Source: Roseobacter fucihabitans (GTDB lineage Bacteria; Pseudomonadota; Alphaproteobacteria; Rhodobacterales; Rhodobacteraceae). Taken from it: a stretch of 64,000 nt of DNA. Every line of letters begins with the position of its first letter. Position 1 is the stretch's first letter. The notes beneath the pieces are model-generated. The model was not told the DNA's origin. It was given only the letters and a program-made list of their open reading frames with translations, and did no database searches. The DNA lies in NCBI RefSeq assembly GCF_014337925.2, contig NZ_CP143423.1, positions 92,501-156,500 of the forward strand, read 5' to 3'. Below, one piece after another: positions 1 to 8,189 of this stretch. The position numbers were made by a program, and so were the translations under genes.

Positions 1-385
1 GCAGACGATCGTGACGGTCTTTTAGACCGCACGAAATTGACATCGTATAGAGAGATACAATTACAACACTGTTTGATCCCGCCGAGTAAGGCGAAGATCT
101 CAGGTTTGTGCCAATCCCTTTGGGGTGAGGCGAGCGATTTTGCGACTGTTTCCTCGGTCAATCTTTCGTATGCAACCTGAAATGAACAGAGTTGTCCAAG
201 TCAAGTACACTAACCCGAACAATGACGCTGATCTCCTGCACGGATGGTCAGCTATATGCGTTGTTCATTGTCTAGTTCTAAGGAACTAGGCGGGAAAAAG
301 TATGCTTTTGATCCAGGATAAAGGTCATCTTTTAGTTACCAGCTGAGAGGGCCGCGATTGACGCAAGTCTTTCTTTTTCTGGATC
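1..385 (+). other. 3' part of 16S-23S rRNA internal transcribed spacer
   Basis: This is spacer leading into the 23S gene. I see no tRNA cloverleaf here, so any tRNA-Ile/tRNA-Ala genes would lie upstream of the window. A perfect hairpin (6-bp stem, TTT loop) occupies 15-29. Segments 41-58 and 300-312 are reverse complements of segments downstream of 5S and 23S respectively, and so look like arms of precursor-rRNA processing stems. No ORF here is credible. Confidence 0.85.
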
Positions 386-952
386 AAATCAAGCGCGAAA
401 AGGGCGTTTGGTGAATGCCTTGGCAGTAAGAGGCGATGAAAGACGTGATACTCTGCGATAAGCCATGGGGAGCTGAGAATAAGCTTTGATCCATGGATTT
501 CTGAATGGGGCAACCCACCTGATACTTTGTTATTATTGTTCTTCGGAGCAGCTAATAATGAGGTAAAACAGGTATTTATAGACTGAATACATAGGTTTAT
601 AAAAGCAAACCCGGGGAACTGAAACATCTAAGTACCCGGAGGAAAGGAAATCAATTGATACTCCCCTAGTAGCGGCGAGCGAACGGGGATCAGCCGAGCC
701 ATGAGTGTGGTTAGAATGCGTTGGAATGCGCAACCAGAGTGGGTGATAGTCCCGTATAAGAAGCATGATTGGACGTATTAAGTAGGGCGGAACACGTGAA
801 ATTCTGTTTGAAGATCGGAGGACCACCTTCGAAGGCTAAGTACTCCTTACTGACCGATAGTGAACCAGTACCGTGAGGGAAAGGTGAAAAGCACCCCGAC
901 GAGGGGAGTGAAACAGTACCTGAAACCGAACGCCTACAATCAGTCGGAGCTT

Positions 953-1495
953 GACTAGAGTCTAATTTGGATGGAAAAGCATGAGCATGAAATCGCTTAT
1001 GCTTACCATACCGTTAGTCCTTGCAACTACAGCATCCTTATCAGCCGCCGAATATGTTTTCGGTCTTGGTCAGGATGATGTCAGTGGTCAGGACGCGGAG
1101 GCTGCGGCCATTCAGCTCGAAATTCATTCCAACCCGGTACGCGAGTATCGGTGGGGAACGATTTCTGGAATGGTTGCTGCTCAAGTTGACGAGGATGGCG
1201 ACACCTATCTGGGTGTTGGCTTATCATCGTTGTGGAACACATCAGATAAATGGTTCATCGAAGGAAGCCTGGCAGCAGGTTACTACGGTGAAGGCAATGG
1301 AGGAACCGATCTCGGTGGAAATCTTCAGTTCAGAACCCTTGTAGGTTTTGGCTACAGGTTGTCCGATCGGGCACGAATTTCCATCGCTGTTGACCATCTA
1401 TCAAACGCAGGGATCGAAGACGTTAATCCAGGTCGTGAAGCAATTTGGATACGATACGGTAGATCCTTTTGATGCGTCCAAATTAGTCTCTAGTC
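953..1495 (+). other. Helix-25 intervening sequence (IVS) of 23S rRNA with an ORF in its loop
   Basis: Arms 953-971 and 1477-1495 are reverse complements at 18 of 19 positions (one T-T mismatch at 961/1487). They extend rRNA helix 25 into a long stem. The loop of 505 nt (972-1476) is filled almost completely by an ORF at 981-1472. Normal 23S sequence resumes on both sides (CAGTCGGAGC before, GTGACGGCGTACCTTTTG after). Helix 25 is a classic site for bacterial IVSs, which RNase III excises without religation, leaving a fragmented 23S. The stem seen here is an ideal RNase III substrate. Known IVS ORFs encode the helical S23 protein; this one does not. Confidence 0.92.
981..1472 (+). CDS. PagL-like lipid A 3-O-deacylase / acyloxyacyl hydrolase encoded inside the 23S IVS
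   Basis: A 163-residue protein. Residues 1-22 form a signal peptide ending in a Ser-Ala-Ala site. The rest alternates polar and hydrophobic residues like a small outer-membrane beta-barrel. The C-terminal part has DHLSNAGIEDVNPGREAIWI and ends in Phe. His139, Ser141 and Glu153 have the spacing n, n+2, n+14 of the PagL catalytic triad (His126, Ser128, Glu140 in Pseudomonas aeruginosa). PagL removes the 3-O-linked acyl chain of lipid A in the outer membrane. The start ATG lies 9 nt after the left IVS arm; a second in-frame ATG follows two codons later. A weak GGATGG precedes it. The stop is 4 nt before the right arm. Intact frame and active-site residues suggest selection for function, but expression from pre-rRNA is not shown by sequence alone. 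Confidence 0.75.
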   Translation: MSMKSLMLTIPLVLATTASLSAAEYVFGLGQDDVSGQDAEAAAIQLEIHSNPVREYRWGTISGMVAAQVDEDGDTYLGVGLSSLWNTSDKWFIEGSLAAGYYGEGNGGTDLGGNLQFRTLVGFGYRLSDRARISIAVDHLSNAGIEDVNPGREAIWIRYGRSF

Positions 1496-1996
1496 TTGTG
1501 ACGGCGTACCTTTTGTATAATGGGTCATCGACTTGGTCTCACGAGCAAGCTTAAGCCGTTAGGTGTAGGCGTAGCGAAAGCGAGTCTTAATAGGGCGTTG
1601 AGTTCGTGGGATCAGACCCGAAACCGAGTGATCTAGGCATGGCCAGGTTGAAGGTTAGGTAACACTAACTGGAGGACCGAACCCACATCCGTTGAAAAGG
1701 ATCGGGATGAGCTGTGCCTAGGGGTGAAAGGCCAATCAAACTCGGAGATAGCTGGTTCTCTGCGAAATCTATTTAGGTAGAGCGTCATCCGAATACCCTC
1801 GGGGGTAGAGCACTGGATGGGTAATGGGGCCTTACCGGCTTACTGATCCTAACCAAACTCCGAATACCGAGGAGTACTAGATGGCAGACACACGGCGAAT
1901 GCTAACGTCCGTCGTGAAGAGGGAAACAACCCTGACCTACAGCTAAGGCCCCTAATTCATGGCTAAGTGGGAAAGCAGGTGAGACGACCAAAACAA

Positions 1997-2027
<31 letters not shown>

Positions 2028-2762
2028 TAAAGATAGCGTAACAGCTCACTGGTCTAAATAAGTTGTCTTGCGGCGAAGATGTAACGGGGCTCAAGCCATG
2101 AGCCGAAGCTTAGGATGCACATAGTGCATGGTAGCAGAGCGTAGTGTGACATAATTCCATGTGTCCTTACTCCCTTCGGGGATATTGGACACGCGGAGTT
2201 TTCTGTGAAGCCGGCGCGTGAGCGATCCGGTGGAGAGATCACTAGTGAGAATGATGACATGAGTAGCGACAAACAGTGTGAGAGACACTGTCGCCGAAAG
2301 TCCAAGGGTTCCTGCTTAAAGCTAATCTGAGCAGGGTAAGCCGACCCCTAAGGCGAGGCCGAAAGGCGTAGTCGATGGGAACCAGGTTAATATTCCTGGG
2401 CCAGATGGAAGTGACGGATCTCGAGGGTAGTTCATCCTTATTGGATTGAATGGGCTGCTTAGAGGTTCCTGGAAATAGCTCCATCGCTAGATCGTACCCT
2501 AAACCGACACAGGTGGACTGGTAGAGAATACCAAGGCGCTTGAGAGAACTATGTTGAAGGAACTCGGCAAAATACCTCCGTAAGTTCGCGAGAAGGAGGC
2601 CCAGTTTCTACGCAAGTATTGGCTGGGGGCACAAACCAGGGGGTGGCGACTGTTTATTAAAAACACAGGGCTCTGCGAAGTCGCAAGACGACGTATAGGG
2701 TCTGACGCCTGCCCGGTGCCTGAAGGTTAAAAGGAGGGGTGAGAGCTCTGAATTGAAGCCCA

Positions 2763-2845
<83 letters not shown>

Positions 2846-3103
2846 CGACTTCCCCGCTGTCTCCAACATAGACTCAGCGAAATTGAATTACCTGTCAAGA
2901 TGCAGGTTTCCCGCGGTTAGACGGAAAGACCCCGTGCACCTTTACTACAACTTCACACTGGCATTAGGCCGAACATGTGCAGGATAGGTGGTGGGCTTTG
3001 AAGCGTGAACGCTAGTTTGCGTGGAGCCTCCCTTGAGATACCACCCTTGTTCTGCTTGATGTCTAACCGCGGTCCGTTATCCGGATCCGGGACCCTGTGT
3101 GGT

Positions 3104-3135
<32 letters not shown>

Positions 3136-3273
3136 GCGTAACGGAGGCGCGCGAAGGTTGGCTCAGAGCGGTCGGAAATCGCTCGTTGAGTGCAATGGCA
3201 GAAGCCAGCCTGACTGCGAGACTGACAAGTCGAGCAGAGTCGAAAGACGGCCATAGTGATCCGGTGGTCCCGA

Positions 3274-3327
<54 letters not shown>

Positions 3328-3840
3328 ACTGCCCAAGAGTCCATATCGACGGCAGTGTTTGGCACCTCGATGTCGGCTCATCTCATCCTGGGGCTGGAGC
3401 AGGTCCCAAGGGTACGGCTGTTCGCCGTTTAAAGAGGTACGTGAGCTGGGTTTAGAACGTCGTGAGACAGTTCGGTCCCTATCTTCCGTGGGTGTAGGAT
3501 ACTTGAGAGGAGTTGCCCCTAGTACGAGAGGACCGGGGTGAACGATCCACTGGTGGACCTGTTGTTGCGCCAGCAGCAGTGCAGGGTAGCTATGATCGGA
3601 AAGGATAACCGCTGAAGGCATCTAAGCGGGAAGCCCCCCTCAAAACAAGGTATCCCTGAGGGCCGAGGTAGACCACCTCGTCGATAGGCCAGAGATGTAA
3701 GCACAGCAATGTGTTCAGTTGACTGGTACTAATTGCCCGATAGGCTTGATTTGATCCAGTAGAAGAGAGATTTTCTAGGATAATCAAAAGCATACACAGC
3801 ACATTAGAGTGCATGACTTGGATGACAGAGGTTTTTCATG

Positions 3841-3956
3841 GTTTGGTGGTCATAGCGCGAGCAAAACACCCGATCCCATCCCGAACTCGGCAGTTAAGTG
3901 CCGCCGCGCCGATGGTACTGCGTCTTAAGGCGTGGGAGAGTAGGTCACCGCCAAAC
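3841..3956 (+). rRNA. rrf: 5S ribosomal RNA
   Basis: The sequence opens with GTTTGGTGGTCATAGCGCGA and closes with its complement CACCGCCAAAC. Conserved CCCGATCCCATCCCGAACTC and GCGTGGGAGAGTAGGTCACC lie inside. Length is about 116 nt, standard for 5S, and it sits 85 nt after the 23S end as in a normal rrn operon. No tRNA follows it. Confidence 0.96.
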
Positions 3957-3975
3957 CTAGTAAAACCTCTGTAAA

Positions 3976-3992
3976 GTATCTCTCTATCGATG
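3976..3992 (+). other. Right arm of a putative pre-rRNA stem enclosing 23S and 5S
   Basis: GTATCTCTCTATCGATG complements spacer positions 41-58 with a single 1-nt bulge. A second pair, 300-312 with 3783-3795 (13 nt, perfect), brackets 23S alone, inside which the canonical 381-394/3744-3757 stem sits. Nested stems like these are normal precursor-processing signals. The 41-58 pair would also enclose 5S. Confidence 0.5.
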
Positions 3993-4112
3993 ATATTGCA
4001 CATATAAGTATTATACGCGTGCTGTAGTTTTGGCATTTATCTGTCGGTTTGAGCTTTTCGTATTTAAAACGGACGTGCTTTACCACGCAGAATCGTCATA
4101 TATTCGTATGCT

Positions 4113-4154
4113 CCAGAAAATGAACCGCCCGTTGGGGTAAGGTTCATTTTCTGG
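4113..4154. repeat. Perfect 14-bp inverted repeat downstream of the rRNA operon
   Basis: CCAGAAAATGAACC (4113-4126) is the exact reverse complement of 4141-4154, separated by a 14-nt loop. It is 157 nt past 5S. There is no T-run after either arm, so it is not a typical intrinsic terminator. It could still be an rRNA transcription end, a protein-binding palindrome, or the footprint of a mobile element. Confidence 0.6.
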
Positions 4155-4222
4155 AAGATTCGAAGATGCGATACTCGACCGGAAAGCATTGCGTTTTTGT
4201 AGCGTTGCATCGGATCATCTAT

Positions 4223-4879
4223 TTAACGCCTTCCCACCTGTTTAAGTAGGGTATATATTAGCGGCCCCAATACGGCGATGCCTGATTTGGGCGTTTCTGG
4301 CCTAAAAGCGATACCATTGCGCATCGACAGGACGAGGTTACTCCCTCCGAAACGATCCACAATCTGCCCGCACAGTGCATCGAAAATGAGCATCACCCAG
4401 CTTCCCACTCTGATAACTTCAGCGGCCGATATGGCCGTATCGCCAAGACCTTCAAGGACCTTTGGGCCGAAGGAAAGATATGTGATGTCGGCTGCATTAA
4501 AAACGCCCCATGCGGGCGCAGCGCAGATTATCAAAAGCCACTCAAGGGCCCTCAGCGATGATGCTGATCGGCCGTGTACGGCTGACAGATCGTTTGGAGG
4601 TCGATAAAACAGCAAAACACCCGCGGCGGCGAGTAGGCAATAAGTCGAGGCGACTTGGAAAAGGGCTTGCCATGCGTAAGCTAAGGTAAGCGTGATCGAC
4701 TTGTCCCATGGCAATGCCAAAGGGCCAGCTCATCACGAGAATGCTCATAGCGGTTGCGATCTCACAACCCTCAAATCAATCCGCCACCATTTTGGTGAAG
4801 TAGAGCGTGGTGAACAGGAATTCTGCGCCCGCAAATATGCGCCCCAACCCTATGGCCCAGCTTTCTGATGCAATGGATG
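4223..4879 (-). pseudogene. Decayed MFS transporter gene
   Basis: Translations from two frames join into pieces of a major-facilitator transporter. Reading on the minus strand from 4879: a GLGRIFAGAEFLFTTLYF-type segment, then an in-frame TGA where a Trp codon is expected (near 4783). MSILVMSWPFGIAMGQ follows, then a frameshift near 4695, then an ITLTLAYAWQALFQVAS segment and a longer conserved stretch. The C-terminal half is collapsed after about residue 130 and the N-terminus is missing beyond the IS at 4880. I found no continuation on the other side of the IS. Substrate cannot be assigned; the style resembles CynX/NimT-like permeases (weak inference). Confidence 0.75.
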
Positions 4880-4942
4880 TGACCTGCGCCCCTTAAACTC
4901 CTCCAAATTTGTGTAGAGTCTGCCCACCAGCAGGACGGACAA

Positions 4943-5247
4943 ATGAAGGCACGTTTCACGGACGAACAAATCATAGCAATGATCAAAGAACAGGAAGCTG
5001 GTGAGAAGACTGCGGACGTATGTCGGCGGCATGCATTGCCCGGCAGGCGATTGCGAAGCAATCTGCCGGGAGGGGGATCAGCTCAGCAACGTTCTACAAA
5101 TACAAATCGAAGTATGGCGGCATGGAGCCGTCCGACGCGAAGCGACTGGGTGCGCTTGAGGATGAGAACAGCAAGCTGAAGAAGCTGTTGGCTGAACAAA
5201 TGTTGGACAACGCCATGTTGCGAGACATCAATTCAAAAAAACGGTGA
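4943..5247 (+). pseudogene. IS3-family transposase orfA, broken by a 41-nt insertion
   Basis: It starts MKARFTDEQIIAMIKEQEAG, the HTH of an IS3-family OrfA. The normal continuation (GISSATFYKYKSKYGGMEP and a leucine-zipper-like LKKLLAEQMLDNAMLRD) is in another frame because 41 nt are inserted after 5033 (41 is 2 modulo 3). Removing 5034-5074 restores the family sequence. The stop is just after the A7 slippery run that would shift ribosomes into orfB. Confidence 0.85.
5034..5074 (+). repeat. Small palindromic (REP-like) element inserted in orfA
   Basis: A 41-nt hairpin-forming insertion begins CATTGCCCGGCAG and ends CTGCCGGGAGGG, with an inner GATTGC-GAA-GCAATC stem. Its boundaries are set by the interrupted transposase codons. 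It shares the CAYTGCCCGGCAG head and GAGGGG tail with the element at 5919-5955, which lies in the opposite orientation. Confidence 0.7.
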
Positions 5248-6120
5248 CGCCCGCCCTGAAGCGGCAAGCTGTGGTGCATTTGATGGCGGCCCATCAAGTC
5301 AGTCAACGGCGGGCGTGTGATGTTTTACAAGTTGATCGATCCTCGGTGCGATATCTGTCGCGCCGAGGCGATGATGCTGAGCTAAGAGATGCAATCAAAC
5401 GCGTTTCTCGTGAACGACGTCGGTTTGGGTGCCGCCGCATCCACGTGATGATTGCGCGGGAGGGCTTTGAGGTGAACCACAAGAAAGTGCGGCGCATCTA
5501 TCGTGAAGAGAGAAGCTTCAGGTGTGTCGCAGGGGTGGCAGGAAGCGCGCGTTGGGAACGAGGAAGCCAATGGCATTGCCCAACGGACCGAACCAGCATT
5601 GGTCGTTGGATTTCGTGTCTGACGCGCTGACAGATGGACGTCGGTTTCGCATTTTGGCAGTTGTCGATGGCTTCAGCCGCGAGAACTTGGTGCTGGTGGC
5701 CGACACGTCGCTGTCTGGTCAACGGTCGCGCGTGAACTGGATCAGATCATTACTGAACGCGGCATGCCAACGACGATTGTATCGGACAACGGTACCGAGT
5801 TCACCAGCATGGCGATCCTCTCAAATGGGTTCAGGATACCGGCATTGACTGGCACTACATCGCGCCCGGAAGGCCCCGGCAGAACGGTTTCATTGAAAGC
5901 TTCAACGGCAAGCTGCGCCCCTCTCGTGCATGTAAACATGCACTGCCGGGCAGTGGATGAATGCCTCAACGAAACGCTGTTTGGTGCTTTAGGCGATGCT
6001 CGCAAAACGCTCGAAGAATGGCAGGAGGATTACAACTGGCAAAGACCACATTCAGGCTCGGGCAACCTGACCCCGATGGAATTCTCGCACAGAAAGGCGA
6101 TGGACAAAATGGCCGCCTAA
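5241..6120 (+). pseudogene. IS3-family transposase orfB (DDE integrase), multiply frameshifted
   Basis: Across three frames the sequence gives the usual OrfB order. An N-terminal HTH part (VDRSSVRYLSRRGDD, RRRFGCRRIHVMI) comes first. NQHWSLDFVSDALTDGRRF carries the first Asp, then [11 protein letters not shown] the second Asp, then ECLNETLFGALGDARKTLEE and WQRPHSGSGNLTPMEF. Frames change near 5520, near 5720 and near 5820. A 37-nt palindromic element interrupts the segment carrying the catalytic Glu. The transposase cannot be made intact. Confidence 0.85.
5919..5955 (-). repeat. Second small palindromic (REP-like) element inserted in orfB
   Basis: On the minus strand this 37-nt insertion reads CACTGCCCGGCAG, a TGCATG-TTTA-CATGCA hairpin, then GAGAGGGG. 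It interrupts the codons Lys-Leu-Arg / Asp-Glu-Cys of the integrase, so its ends are clear. Head and tail match the element at 5034-5074, but the inner hairpin differs. Confidence 0.65.
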
Positions 6121-6358
6121 CGCCAAAGATCTAACCCAAAGGATTCCGCGCAAAGCCGGATGAGACTTGGGGATCAGGGCATATTTATAGCAGCATCTGG
6201 TAAAAAGCCGTGTCAGTACCCGCGGGAGAAACGAAGGTTCTGATAGGTCAAAGGCAATTCATGCACTGACTTTCAATCCGTACCACTCAAGCGAGGCTGC
6301 CTGCCGCCTGAAGCCTTGTCGTACTCAGTGCTCGTTTCATTGCAGCCAAAAAGTCAGC

Positions 6359-6392
6359 AGCCCAGTCACCTGTCATAAGCAGGTTCTGGGCT
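6359..6392 (-). terminator. Intrinsic terminator of mclA
   Basis: On the minus strand the stem AGCCCAG/CTGGGCT encloses a second ACCTG/CAGGT stem and is followed within a few bases by CTTTTTGG. It lies 22 nt past the mclA stop codon. Confidence 0.6.
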
Positions 6393-6414
6393 ACTTCGTT
6401 TAAATCAAACGGTA

Positions 6415-7392
6415 TTATCCAGCTGCGATTTGCTTGGCTTTTTCGACAAGAACTTCGGCCTGGCGTATGGAAGCGTAGTCAATCAGGCGGCCATCTAGAG
6501 AAACTGCGCCCTTTCCGGCCGCTTCGGCTTCGGCCATGGCCTCAATGATACGGTTGGCTTTGGTCACTTCGGCCTCTGAGGGGCTCATCACCTCATTTGC
6601 CAATGCAATCTGGCTGGGGTGGATGGCCCATTTGCCTTCGCAGCCCAACACCGCAGCCCGGAATGCAGCGGCTTTGTAACCCTCCGGATCAGAAAAGTCG
6701 CCGAATGGGCCGTCCACAGGGCGTAGACCATTCGCCCGCGCTGCCACGACCATATTGGCAATCGCAGAATGCCACATATCGCCCCAATGCACCTGCCGCC
6801 CACCATCGTCATCAGGGTCTGTCAGGACCGAGTAATGTTGGTTCACACCACCGATCACAGTGGTACGCGCACGCATGCTGGCGGCATAGTCTGCGACACC
6901 GAAATGGAGGCTCTCATTGCGCTTGGATGCAGCAGCAATTTCGTTGACGTTTTGCATACCCAAAGCGGTCTCGATGATATGCTCAAAACCAATGCGTTTC
7001 GAGTAGCCCATAGCGTCCTCAATTTGGGTGACCATCATGTCCACTGCATAGACGTCAGCGGCGGTTCCAACCTTGGGGATCATGATCAGATCAAGCCGCT
7101 CCCCGGCCTGCTCAACCACGTCAACAACATCGCGATACATGTAGTGCGTGTCCAACCCGTTGATTCGAATCGACATTGATTTGTTACCCCAATCGATGTC
7201 GTTCAGACCCTTAATGATGTTCTTACGCGCTTGTTCTTTTTCATCCGGCGCAACCGCATCTTCGAGATCAAGGAAGATCACGTCCACGTCAGATTTTGCA
7301 GCTTTTTCAAACATTTGTGGCTGGCTGCCGGGGACTGCCAGCTCCGACCGGTTAAGGCGCGCGGTGGCTTGATCGATGGGATGAAAACTCAT
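6415..7392 (-). CDS. mclA: L-malyl-CoA lyase (serine cycle)
   Basis: A 325-residue CitE/HpcH-fold CoA-ester lyase. It cleaves L-malyl-CoA to glyoxylate and acetyl-CoA, closing the serine cycle. Visible features: RLNRSELAVPGSQPQMF near the N-terminus (CoA/phosphate contacts), VIFLDLEDAVAPDEK (metal-binding Asp/Glu), SIRINGLDT, MIPKV, IETALGMQN, and the C-terminal GKWAIHPSQIALAN. I chose the start MSFHPIDQ because AAGGA lies 8 nt upstream; a longer frame exists but has no ribosome site. It is convergent with the decayed region and in the same direction as the regulator upstream. Beta-methylmalyl-CoA lyase activity is a possible alternative, but the serine-cycle neighbours favour malyl-CoA lyase. 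Confidence 0.92.
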   Translation of the reverse strand: MSFHPIDQATARLNRSELAVPGSQPQMFEKAAKSDVDVIFLDLEDAVAPDEKEQARKNIIKGLNDIDWGNKSMSIRINGLDTHYMYRDVVDVVEQAGERLDLIMIPKVGTAADVYAVDMMVTQIEDAMGYSKRIGFEHIIETALGMQNVNEIAAASKRNESLHFGVADYAASMRARTTVIGGVNQHYSVLTDPDDDGGRQVHWGDMWHSAIANMVVAARANGLRPVDGPFGDFSDPEGYKAAAFRAAVLGCEGKWAIHPSQIALANEVMSPSEAEVTKANRIIEAMAEAEAAGKGAVSLDGRLIDYASIRQAEVLVEKAKQIAAG

Positions 7393-7493
7393 TTGCGATA
7401 ATCCTTGAGGTTGTGATGCGAAGGTCGGACCAACACAGAGGGAAAAATAATTTCCTGTCAAGAATATTCATTCACCCTTTTGAACGCCGTACC

Positions 7494-8189
7494 TCAGCTG
7501 TCGCCCGAACTGCGCGCGCTGATTTGGGCGGAAAAGAAAAATGCAACGGCTTGGGTGCGGCTGGTCACGGAGAGCTTTTCGTAGAGGTTTGAGAGGTGGA
7601 ATTTCACCGTGTTTGCAGAGATCTCAAACTCTGCGGCTAACTGCCTGTTTGAGAGTCCCCGCGAGAGGGCTTCCAGTAAGGCTTTTTCGCGCTTGGTCAG
7701 CTGGTGGATCGGATCGCTCTGAAGCTCGCGCACGTCAAGAAACGGAAAAACCATTTGCCCGGCTGCCACCGCGGCGCAGGTGTTCAGCAATCCCTCCACC
7801 GGCCCGTTACGTGGGGTGAACCCAGCCGCGCCCGCGGTCAACGCCTGTCGCGGCAAATCGCCTGCGTTATCGCCGTAGACCAAAACGCGAGGCGCTGTGG
7901 CCTGGTCACGCAGGACTTCGATCAATTTTTGCCCACCAAGTGCGGGCAGGTTCCAGTCGATCACGCCAATTTGCACAGGCACCCGCATCACGGTGCCCAG
8001 GAAACCTTCTGCGGTCGATGTGGTCGCCACCAGCGAGAATCGGGGGTCGCGGTCGAAAATCTCTGACATGGCGGAAAGCACCAGCATATTGCTGTCCGCA
8101 AGTGCGACGGTAATCTGGTCTGGGTGTTTCTTAACATCTTGCAATTGCTGATCTTTCACAAATAACCCACCCTTTAGTATGGGCTTCAT
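7494..8189 (-). CDS. LuxR/FixJ-type response regulator, candidate regulator of the serine-cycle genes
   Basis: About 231 residues. The N-terminal receiver-like domain has the phosphoacceptor-position Asp in VIDWNLP. The usual acidic pair is reduced (ADSN in place of a DD pair) and the conserved Lys is replaced (FTPRNG), so it may act without normal phosphorylation (inference). The C-terminal LuxR helix-turn-helix is clear: LTKREKALLEALSRGLSNRQ and ISANTVKFHLSNLYEKL. The start is uncertain: ATG at 8189, or GTG at 8159, which has the better ribosome site (AAGGGTGGG, 6 nt away). It is divergent from sgaA across a short region with TGGGTA/TACCCA repeats, and upstream of mclA. Location suggests it controls the C1 locus. 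No partner kinase is visible here. Confidence 0.85.
   Translation of the reverse strand: MKPILKGGLFVKDQQLQDVKKHPDQITVALADSNMLVLSAMSEIFDRDPRFSLVATTSTAEGFLGTVMRVPVQIGVIDWNLPALGGQKLIEVLRDQATAPRVLVYGDNAGDLPRQALTAGAAGFTPRNGPVEGLLNTCAAVAAGQMVFPFLDVRELQSDPIHQLTKREKALLEALSRGLSNRQLAAEFEISANTVKFHLSNLYEKLSVTSRTQAVAFFFSAQISARSSGDS

Follow-up and report, generated by a model that had tools for sequence, protein, structure and literature searches.

A candidate PagL-type lipid A deacylase gene within a 23S rRNA intervening sequence of Roseobacter fucihabitans and its relatives

The single 23S rRNA gene found in Roseobacter fucihabitans is interrupted at helix 25 by an intervening sequence (IVS) whose loop probably holds a working gene for a PagL-type outer membrane lipid A deacylase, in a form that could be excised from the transcript. 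We put the probability of this reading at about 0.78; excision of the spacer, translation of its message, and activity of the IVS-borne enzyme are what we infer from the sequence. The window, by which we mean the whole stretch of DNA that was analysed (64,000 nucleotides; contig NZ_CP143423.1, positions 92,501 to 156,500), contains a 23S gene that is complete but broken by extra sequence between 952 and 1496, giving an IVS of 543 nt. We take the insertion site to be helix 25, following the sequence-only reading that preceded this work and the E. coli numbering. The claim of that reading, that an IVS at this helix encodes a PagL-type protein, was borne out by the span of the Rfam match, the paired arms, and the Pfam PagL match. 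A search for a group I or group II intron core returned no intron family at the Rfam gathering threshold in positions 1 to 8000 of the window. The features to which we refer are as follows.

387..3753, forward strand: 23S rRNA gene including the insert (Rfam RF02541 LSU_rRNA_bacteria, 2603.8 bits, model positions 1-2925)
953..971, forward strand: left arm of the IVS, extending helix 25, with 18 of 19 positions paired with 1477-1495
973..979, forward strand: weak Shine-Dalgarno-like GGAAAAG upstream of the start, from the sequence
981..986, forward strand: alternative first ATG, named by the sequence-only reading, not conserved in the nearest relatives
987..1472, forward strand: PagL-family ORF, 161 amino acids plus stop, with a conserved ATGAAA start (PF09411, E 5.9e-18)
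1477..1495, forward strand: right arm of the IVS, pairing with 953-971, with changes on both sides across 24 inserts
3842..3956, forward strand: 5S rRNA, 3' of the 23S (Rfam)

A second variable 23S stem, near helix 45 by its position, lies at about 2154-2199 of the window and is longer in genome G006 (L012:2642-2751). Downstream of the rrn operon, at 4943-6120, there are overlapping and apparently broken transposase-like frames that have, by eye, an IS3-type look.

The arms had been described as pairing at 18 of 19 positions (953-971 with 1477-1495), and we confirm this, the sole mismatch being one U-U (row L002). Scored in the same register over 24 related inserts, the stem has 469 paired cells out of 504, whereas 500 shuffles of the partners averaged 392 and never exceeded 437, and slid registers gave 125 to 219. 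The pair type has changed on both sides at 11 of 21 positions; both the pair and the covariation counts are inflated by shared ancestry. Stem duplex energies across the inserts range from -27 to -37 kcal/mol. The region 940-1510 of the window folds at -230 kcal/mol compared with a mean of -175 for 100 dinucleotide shuffles (z = -9.4), and the single arms, each folded alone, gave structure no better than that of shuffles, as is expected if the arms pair with each other. A long stem of complementary arms thus closes off the added sequence within the 23S helix, which is one mark of an IVS, and the stem is of a length suitable for RNase III.

A sense-strand reading frame does fill the loop, as the sequence-only reading had stated, but not from the start codon that it chose. 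That start, at 981, was rejected because the corresponding codon is ATA in L003 and GTC in L004; the ATG at 987 is the conserved one, being kept in position in both of these inserts and matched by a comparable start in the remaining type A ones, and it is probably here that the ORF begins. The protein of the window scores 65.7 bits for the Pfam family PagL, whose cut-off is 23. This is its sole Pfam match at E up to 1, the four-helix S23p family being absent, and NCBIfam gave no family for it at E up to 1. All 18 members of alignment A2 match Pfam PagL at E up to 0.01. The sole match in the PDB at E up to 1 is 2ERV (E 9e-5), covering query residues 87-157 in the C-terminal half. We take this structure to be the PagL of Pseudomonas aeruginosa, and residues 126, 128, and 140 of its chain, with which the His, Ser, and Glu of the ORF align, to be the catalytic triad. 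The PagL spacing of n, n+2, and n+14 noticed at the outset holds, the residues being His137, Ser139, and Glu151 when counted from 987. The triad is present in all 24 IVS ORFs; in 23 of them the Glu is at n+14, and in the remaining one it is at n+15. The motif scan picked up the wrong motif in row L133. In the PagL of Salmonella, His163 and Ser165 are reported to be essential (PMC4958258), and we count the agreement of the His-x-Ser spacing of the ORF with these residues in favour of its identity as PagL.

The proteins fall into two types. The N-terminus of the window's ORF reads by eye as a signal peptide and its C-terminal residue is Phe, and type A proteins, which are those of Roseobacter, likewise have an apparent signal peptide at the start and Phe at the end. 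Type B proteins, found outside Roseobacter, begin differently, with a hydrophobic stretch that by eye contains two cysteines, and their last residue is Arg, Lys, or Asn; the two types are only 24-30% identical. Such low identity, together with a PDB match confined to the C-terminal half and the lack of an NCBIfam family, would suit an enzyme of the PagL fold that acts on something besides the 3-O acyl chain of lipid A. We consider a different substrate quite unlikely, however, as Pfam PagL matches all 18 of the members tested and the triad spacing is exact in 23 of 24.

Substitution patterns indicate selection on the ORF at the protein level. Mean dN/dS by the Nei-Gojobori method is 0.141 for type A1 (3 of 3 pairs), 0.098 for type A2 (19 of 21 pairs, dS < 3), and 0.128 for type B (9 of 14 loci, 33 of 36 pairs), although these ratios are rough because dS is high. 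Differences at codon positions 1, 2, and 3 number 641, 371, and 1646 in A2 and 1467, 897, and 3354 in B. Judged by these comparisons, the PagL ORFs borne by IVSs are under purifying selection, with dN/dS of about 0.10-0.14. Four chromosomal PagL copies of Roseobacter (dN/dS 0.192; 2 of 6 pairs usable) are also constrained, which points to selection on the protein and not specifically on its place. It could be argued that the IVS is of the usual selfish sort and that its ORF is carried along without a function, as has been proposed for the S23p ORF of Coxiella: IVSs do exist at helix 25 in Campylobacter, in a report whose main text does not use the term ORF (PMC2801512), and the Coxiella ORF is described as decaying (PMC4990558). 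For the inserts studied here we find this argument highly improbable, given the low dN/dS, the bias of change towards third positions (641/371/1646 in A2), the retention of the triad in 24 of 24 ORFs, and an intact fossil ORF in genome G018 that has outlived both stem and 23S.

The IVS is shared by relatives and recurs in 17 genera, counting Roseobacter. Within Roseobacter, 15 of 19 genomes show the 23S site (no 23S flank was found in G001, G002, G011, and G014), and 10 of these 15 have a PagL insert, with 571-576 nt between the anchors. The other five have 35 nt between the anchors, forming short hairpins such as GGGGCTTTACGCCCT, and carry PagL elsewhere in the genome. The insert is therefore sporadic among relatives at a fixed site (10 filled versus 5 with a short hairpin), a further mark of an IVS. 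In a wider sample of the family, at least 124 of 296 genomes match the joined-flank query, among the matches listed and with two candidates scored for each genome. Half-matches occur in at least 18 genomes of the family among the matches listed, and a nineteenth, G043, was recognised from its sequence; G129, G210, and G291 gave weak matches in this search. Sixteen genera other than Roseobacter have inserts, 14 of them read fully and 2 partly, each with a sense-strand PagL. For G043 and G302 only the right end was read, showing the C-terminus of PagL beside the right arm (translated by eye in G302). Two genomes (G105 and G127) read N at the site. PagL is found in every readable long insert, and 26 genomes of different species have a PagL insert. 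The inserts of three genomes (L066, L067, and L069) are N over all or most of their length.

As to other rrn copies, about which the sequence-only reading had wondered, a single 23S gene was found in the genome of the window (one match each to 118-nt and 191-nt 23S queries), and no IVS-free 23S was found beside any insert. Among the 26 insert-bearing genomes there is one 23S copy in 23, two in G293, and three in G344, with no match in G120, and PagL inserts equal 23S copies in number wherever both were counted; these counts come from separate PagL and 23S searches, and drafts may have collapsed or hidden copies. Both 23S copies of G293 were read and both have the insert. Two copies of G344 were read and have the same ORF and arms, while a third insert is indicated by a PagL match of the same score and spacing from 23S. 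The insert is the one PagL match in the window's own genome, and of the 15 genomes in the family sample whose insert was read throughout, our own among them, 14 have no PagL match beyond their inserts; G191 has one extra. In several draft genomes the insert is on an rrn contig about 6 kb long, as might be seen with an artefact of assembly or contamination. The likelihood of such an origin is close to nil, and assembly error was rejected as the source of the insert, because inserts also lie on long contigs (G000, 4.5 Mb; G016, 5.1 Mb; G008, 3.9 Mb; G191, 4.3 Mb; G307, 3.0 Mb), the copies within G344 agree, and the insert is present in 26 genomes of different species.

At the level of the class, 337 genomes were scanned for the outer-arm pattern with up to 3 mismatches allowed, and our own was the one match. 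This search is weak, because just 5 of the genomes sampled belong to the family and the pattern cannot appear in drafts that lack rRNA. Only the window's own locus lies in 23S among the best 30 class-level PagL loci. PagL also occurs on plasmids, in 8 records from Sulfitobacter and Tritonibacter that are up to 52% identical. The homologues on the Sulfitobacter plasmids NZ_CP139727.1, NZ_CP139710.1, and NZ_CP139709.1 are about half identical to that of the window. Sulfitobacter plasmids are a possible route for the PagL gene.

Within Roseobacter the insert exists as two alleles, A1 and A2, whose proteins are about half identical and which alternate against the species tree. In an rpoB tree built at the DNA level for 15 Roseobacter genomes, each of three supported sister pairs unites an A1 with an A2 insert: G000/G016 (100/100), G007/G015 (98/96), and G009/G005 (100/99). 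The upstream rrn flank is common to all 14 genomes compared (of the 15, G006 was left out), whatever the allele, with summed matches of about 2.3-5.6 kb; the downstream flanks mostly have no match between the compared genomes. Variable columns in the 23S flanks number 64 of 584 and 76 of 892, and none of the sites scored has a fixed difference between the A1 and A2 genomes; columns with gaps were left unscored, and part of G015 is N. An ancestor with two rrn operons followed by differential loss is a possible source of this pattern. The simplest account, on the evidence of these trees and flanks, would be exchange of alleles between species by recombination within 23S.

The gene also occurs outside rRNA. 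In G018, an intact PagL ORF (L015:1396-2050) lies between decayed scraps of 23S, away from the rrn locus. About 75 nt are left of the left scrap (E 5e-7) and about 33 nt of the right (88%, E 2e-6), and the fossil arms pair at -7.2 kcal/mol. When the 5S and the 2.5 kb upstream rrn region of our own operon, which presumably holds the 16S, were used as queries, this site gave only a 17-nt match (E 0.018). To judge from these remains, G018 is a fossil of the rRNA-borne state in which the gene has outlived its 23S and its stem. A second chromosomal PagL site is common to G003 and G017 and a third to G010 and G012, with no 23S match at either. The triad is intact in the PagL outside rRNA of G010, G012, and G018; the rRNA site is therefore not required. 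In 6 of the 9 chromosomal members of clade A (L005, L008, L017, L018, L019, and L094) Asn replaces Glu, which suggests altered or lost activity in L005 and L008 (G003 and G017).

On a PagL tree of 54 sequences (24 IVS and 30 chromosomal), the IVS label requires 12 changes, at least 5 of them forced by supported branches. On a protein rpoB tree it also requires 12 changes, at least 4 of them forced; this tree used a motif filter and holds 47 of 48 genomes, G111 having no rpoB match. For 19 type B chromosomal PagL loci, compared over regions of about 8-15 kb, a common gene turned up in 5 of 171 pairs; the basal L021, L033, L034, and L077, by contrast, have neighbouring genes in common. The apparent shared neighbours of type B chromosomal pagL were rejected, being mostly shadow ORFs of pagL itself. 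It is possible, though we would sooner doubt it, that IVSs have captured chromosomal pagL repeatedly and independently, instead of a few captures having been followed by repeated escape. Repeated capture would accord with the number of label changes on the PagL tree and with the deep split between types A and B. It accords less well with the contrast between the rarely shared neighbours of most chromosomal pairs and those of the basal loci, with G018, which resembles an exit from rRNA, and with the outer arms of types A and B, which are similar by eye; the argument from neighbours is itself weak, since gene order is quickly lost from one genus to the next. These observations would fit a history in which the gene entered rRNA from an ancestral place on the chromosome, with exits later on. 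The evolutionary pattern agrees in part with the suggestion, made at the outset, that a selfish IVS had taken up a useful gene.

If our main reading is right, the rrn operon would be transcribed and RNase III would cut the long stem of the IVS, and the 23S, split at helix 25, would keep working in two pieces. Ribosomes would read the PagL message either on the loop once released or on the transcript while it is being made, and the protein would go to the outer membrane and take off a 3-O-linked acyl chain of lipid A; the amount of protein would follow rrn transcription. Different species would trade alleles of the IVS, with homologous recombination in the conserved flanking 23S as the probable route, and the gene may have made several moves from rRNA to ordinary sites on the chromosome or back. 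The rRNA gene would then be dual, its transcript yielding both a (split) 23S and the mRNA of an envelope enzyme, with lipid A remodelling wired to ribosome synthesis and the cassette circulating as alleles by way of the rRNA flanks. Our confidence in this fuller picture falls a little short of even. It suggests that one transcript can be both ribosome part and messenger.

The main doubt concerns translation. The IVS of Coxiella and, by the same account, those of other bacteria are excised by RNase III, and the S23p ORF of Coxiella is thought to be unexpressed because RNase III removes its ribosome-binding region (PMC4990558). The weak ribosome-binding site of type A adjoins the stem, which raises the same difficulty here. 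Duplexes between the anti-Shine-Dalgarno sequence and the 22 nt before the start have energies of -5.5 kcal/mol in the window, -3.4 to -5.5 in type A, and -5.4 to -10.8 in type B, as raw values without a shuffled control, and on the same footing the sites of type B (AAGGAG in L028) appear stronger than those of type A. The protein might instead be made without an excised spacer, either because the IVS stays in the mature 23S or because translation proceeds from pre-rRNA or from a promoter of its own. The position of the type A site, beside a stem that RNase III would cut, lends this some weight, whereas the excision by RNase III reported for Coxiella and other bacterial IVSs (PMC4990558) speaks against it, and we regard it as unlikely but worth keeping in view. 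If the ORF is translated, rRNA transcripts would serve as mRNA as well, and envelope remodelling may thereby be linked to growth rate. Vesicle release might perhaps accompany this remodelling, as PagL expression is reported to raise vesicle formation in Salmonella (PMC4958258).

What we describe is an ordinary enzyme gene under selection inside rRNA across many genera of one family. If the fuller picture is true, rRNA would offer ordinary cellular genes a natural place to settle, one where annotation can overlook them. The inserts also suggest that real genes can be missed by gene finders that discard ORFs within rRNA. They provide, too, a natural system for asking what IVSs are for.

An IVS with an ORF is not new in itself; the identity of the gene, the selection on it, and its spread are new within the open-access literature searched, where we found no description of PagL in an rRNA insert. 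PagL genes are otherwise, to our knowledge, ordinary genes outside rRNA, whereas the Roseobacter-type gene lies inside rRNA. Group I introns with homing endonucleases are mobile protein-coding inserts of bacterial 23S genes. The present insert resembles them as a protein-coding mobile insert in 23S but differs in having no Rfam intron match (window 1-8000) and in that its ORF is PagL and not an endonuclease; group I introns are mentioned for the 23S of Coxiella (PMC4990558). With the known PagL lipid A 3-O-deacylases (2ERV; Salmonella, PMC4958258) the protein shares its Pfam family, the aligned His-x-Ser and Glu, and a hydrophobic N-terminus. The IVS of Campylobacter is likewise a stem-loop insert at helix 25, and the 23S there is fragmented; unlike the present one, it is rare at helix 25 in the genus, copies with and without it are reported in one isolate, and the terms ORF, open reading frame, and encode are absent from the main text of the report (PMC2801512). 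Coxiella burnetii has the best-described IVS with an ORF, which, as here, lies on the sense strand in the loop of an insert in a 23S helix (PMC4990558). That insert is at helix 45 and not 25, its ORF is a four-helix S23p that is decaying and probably unexpressed, and the element has been called selfish (PMC4990558). The Roseobacter IVS, by comparison, carries what appears to be an envelope enzyme under purifying selection.
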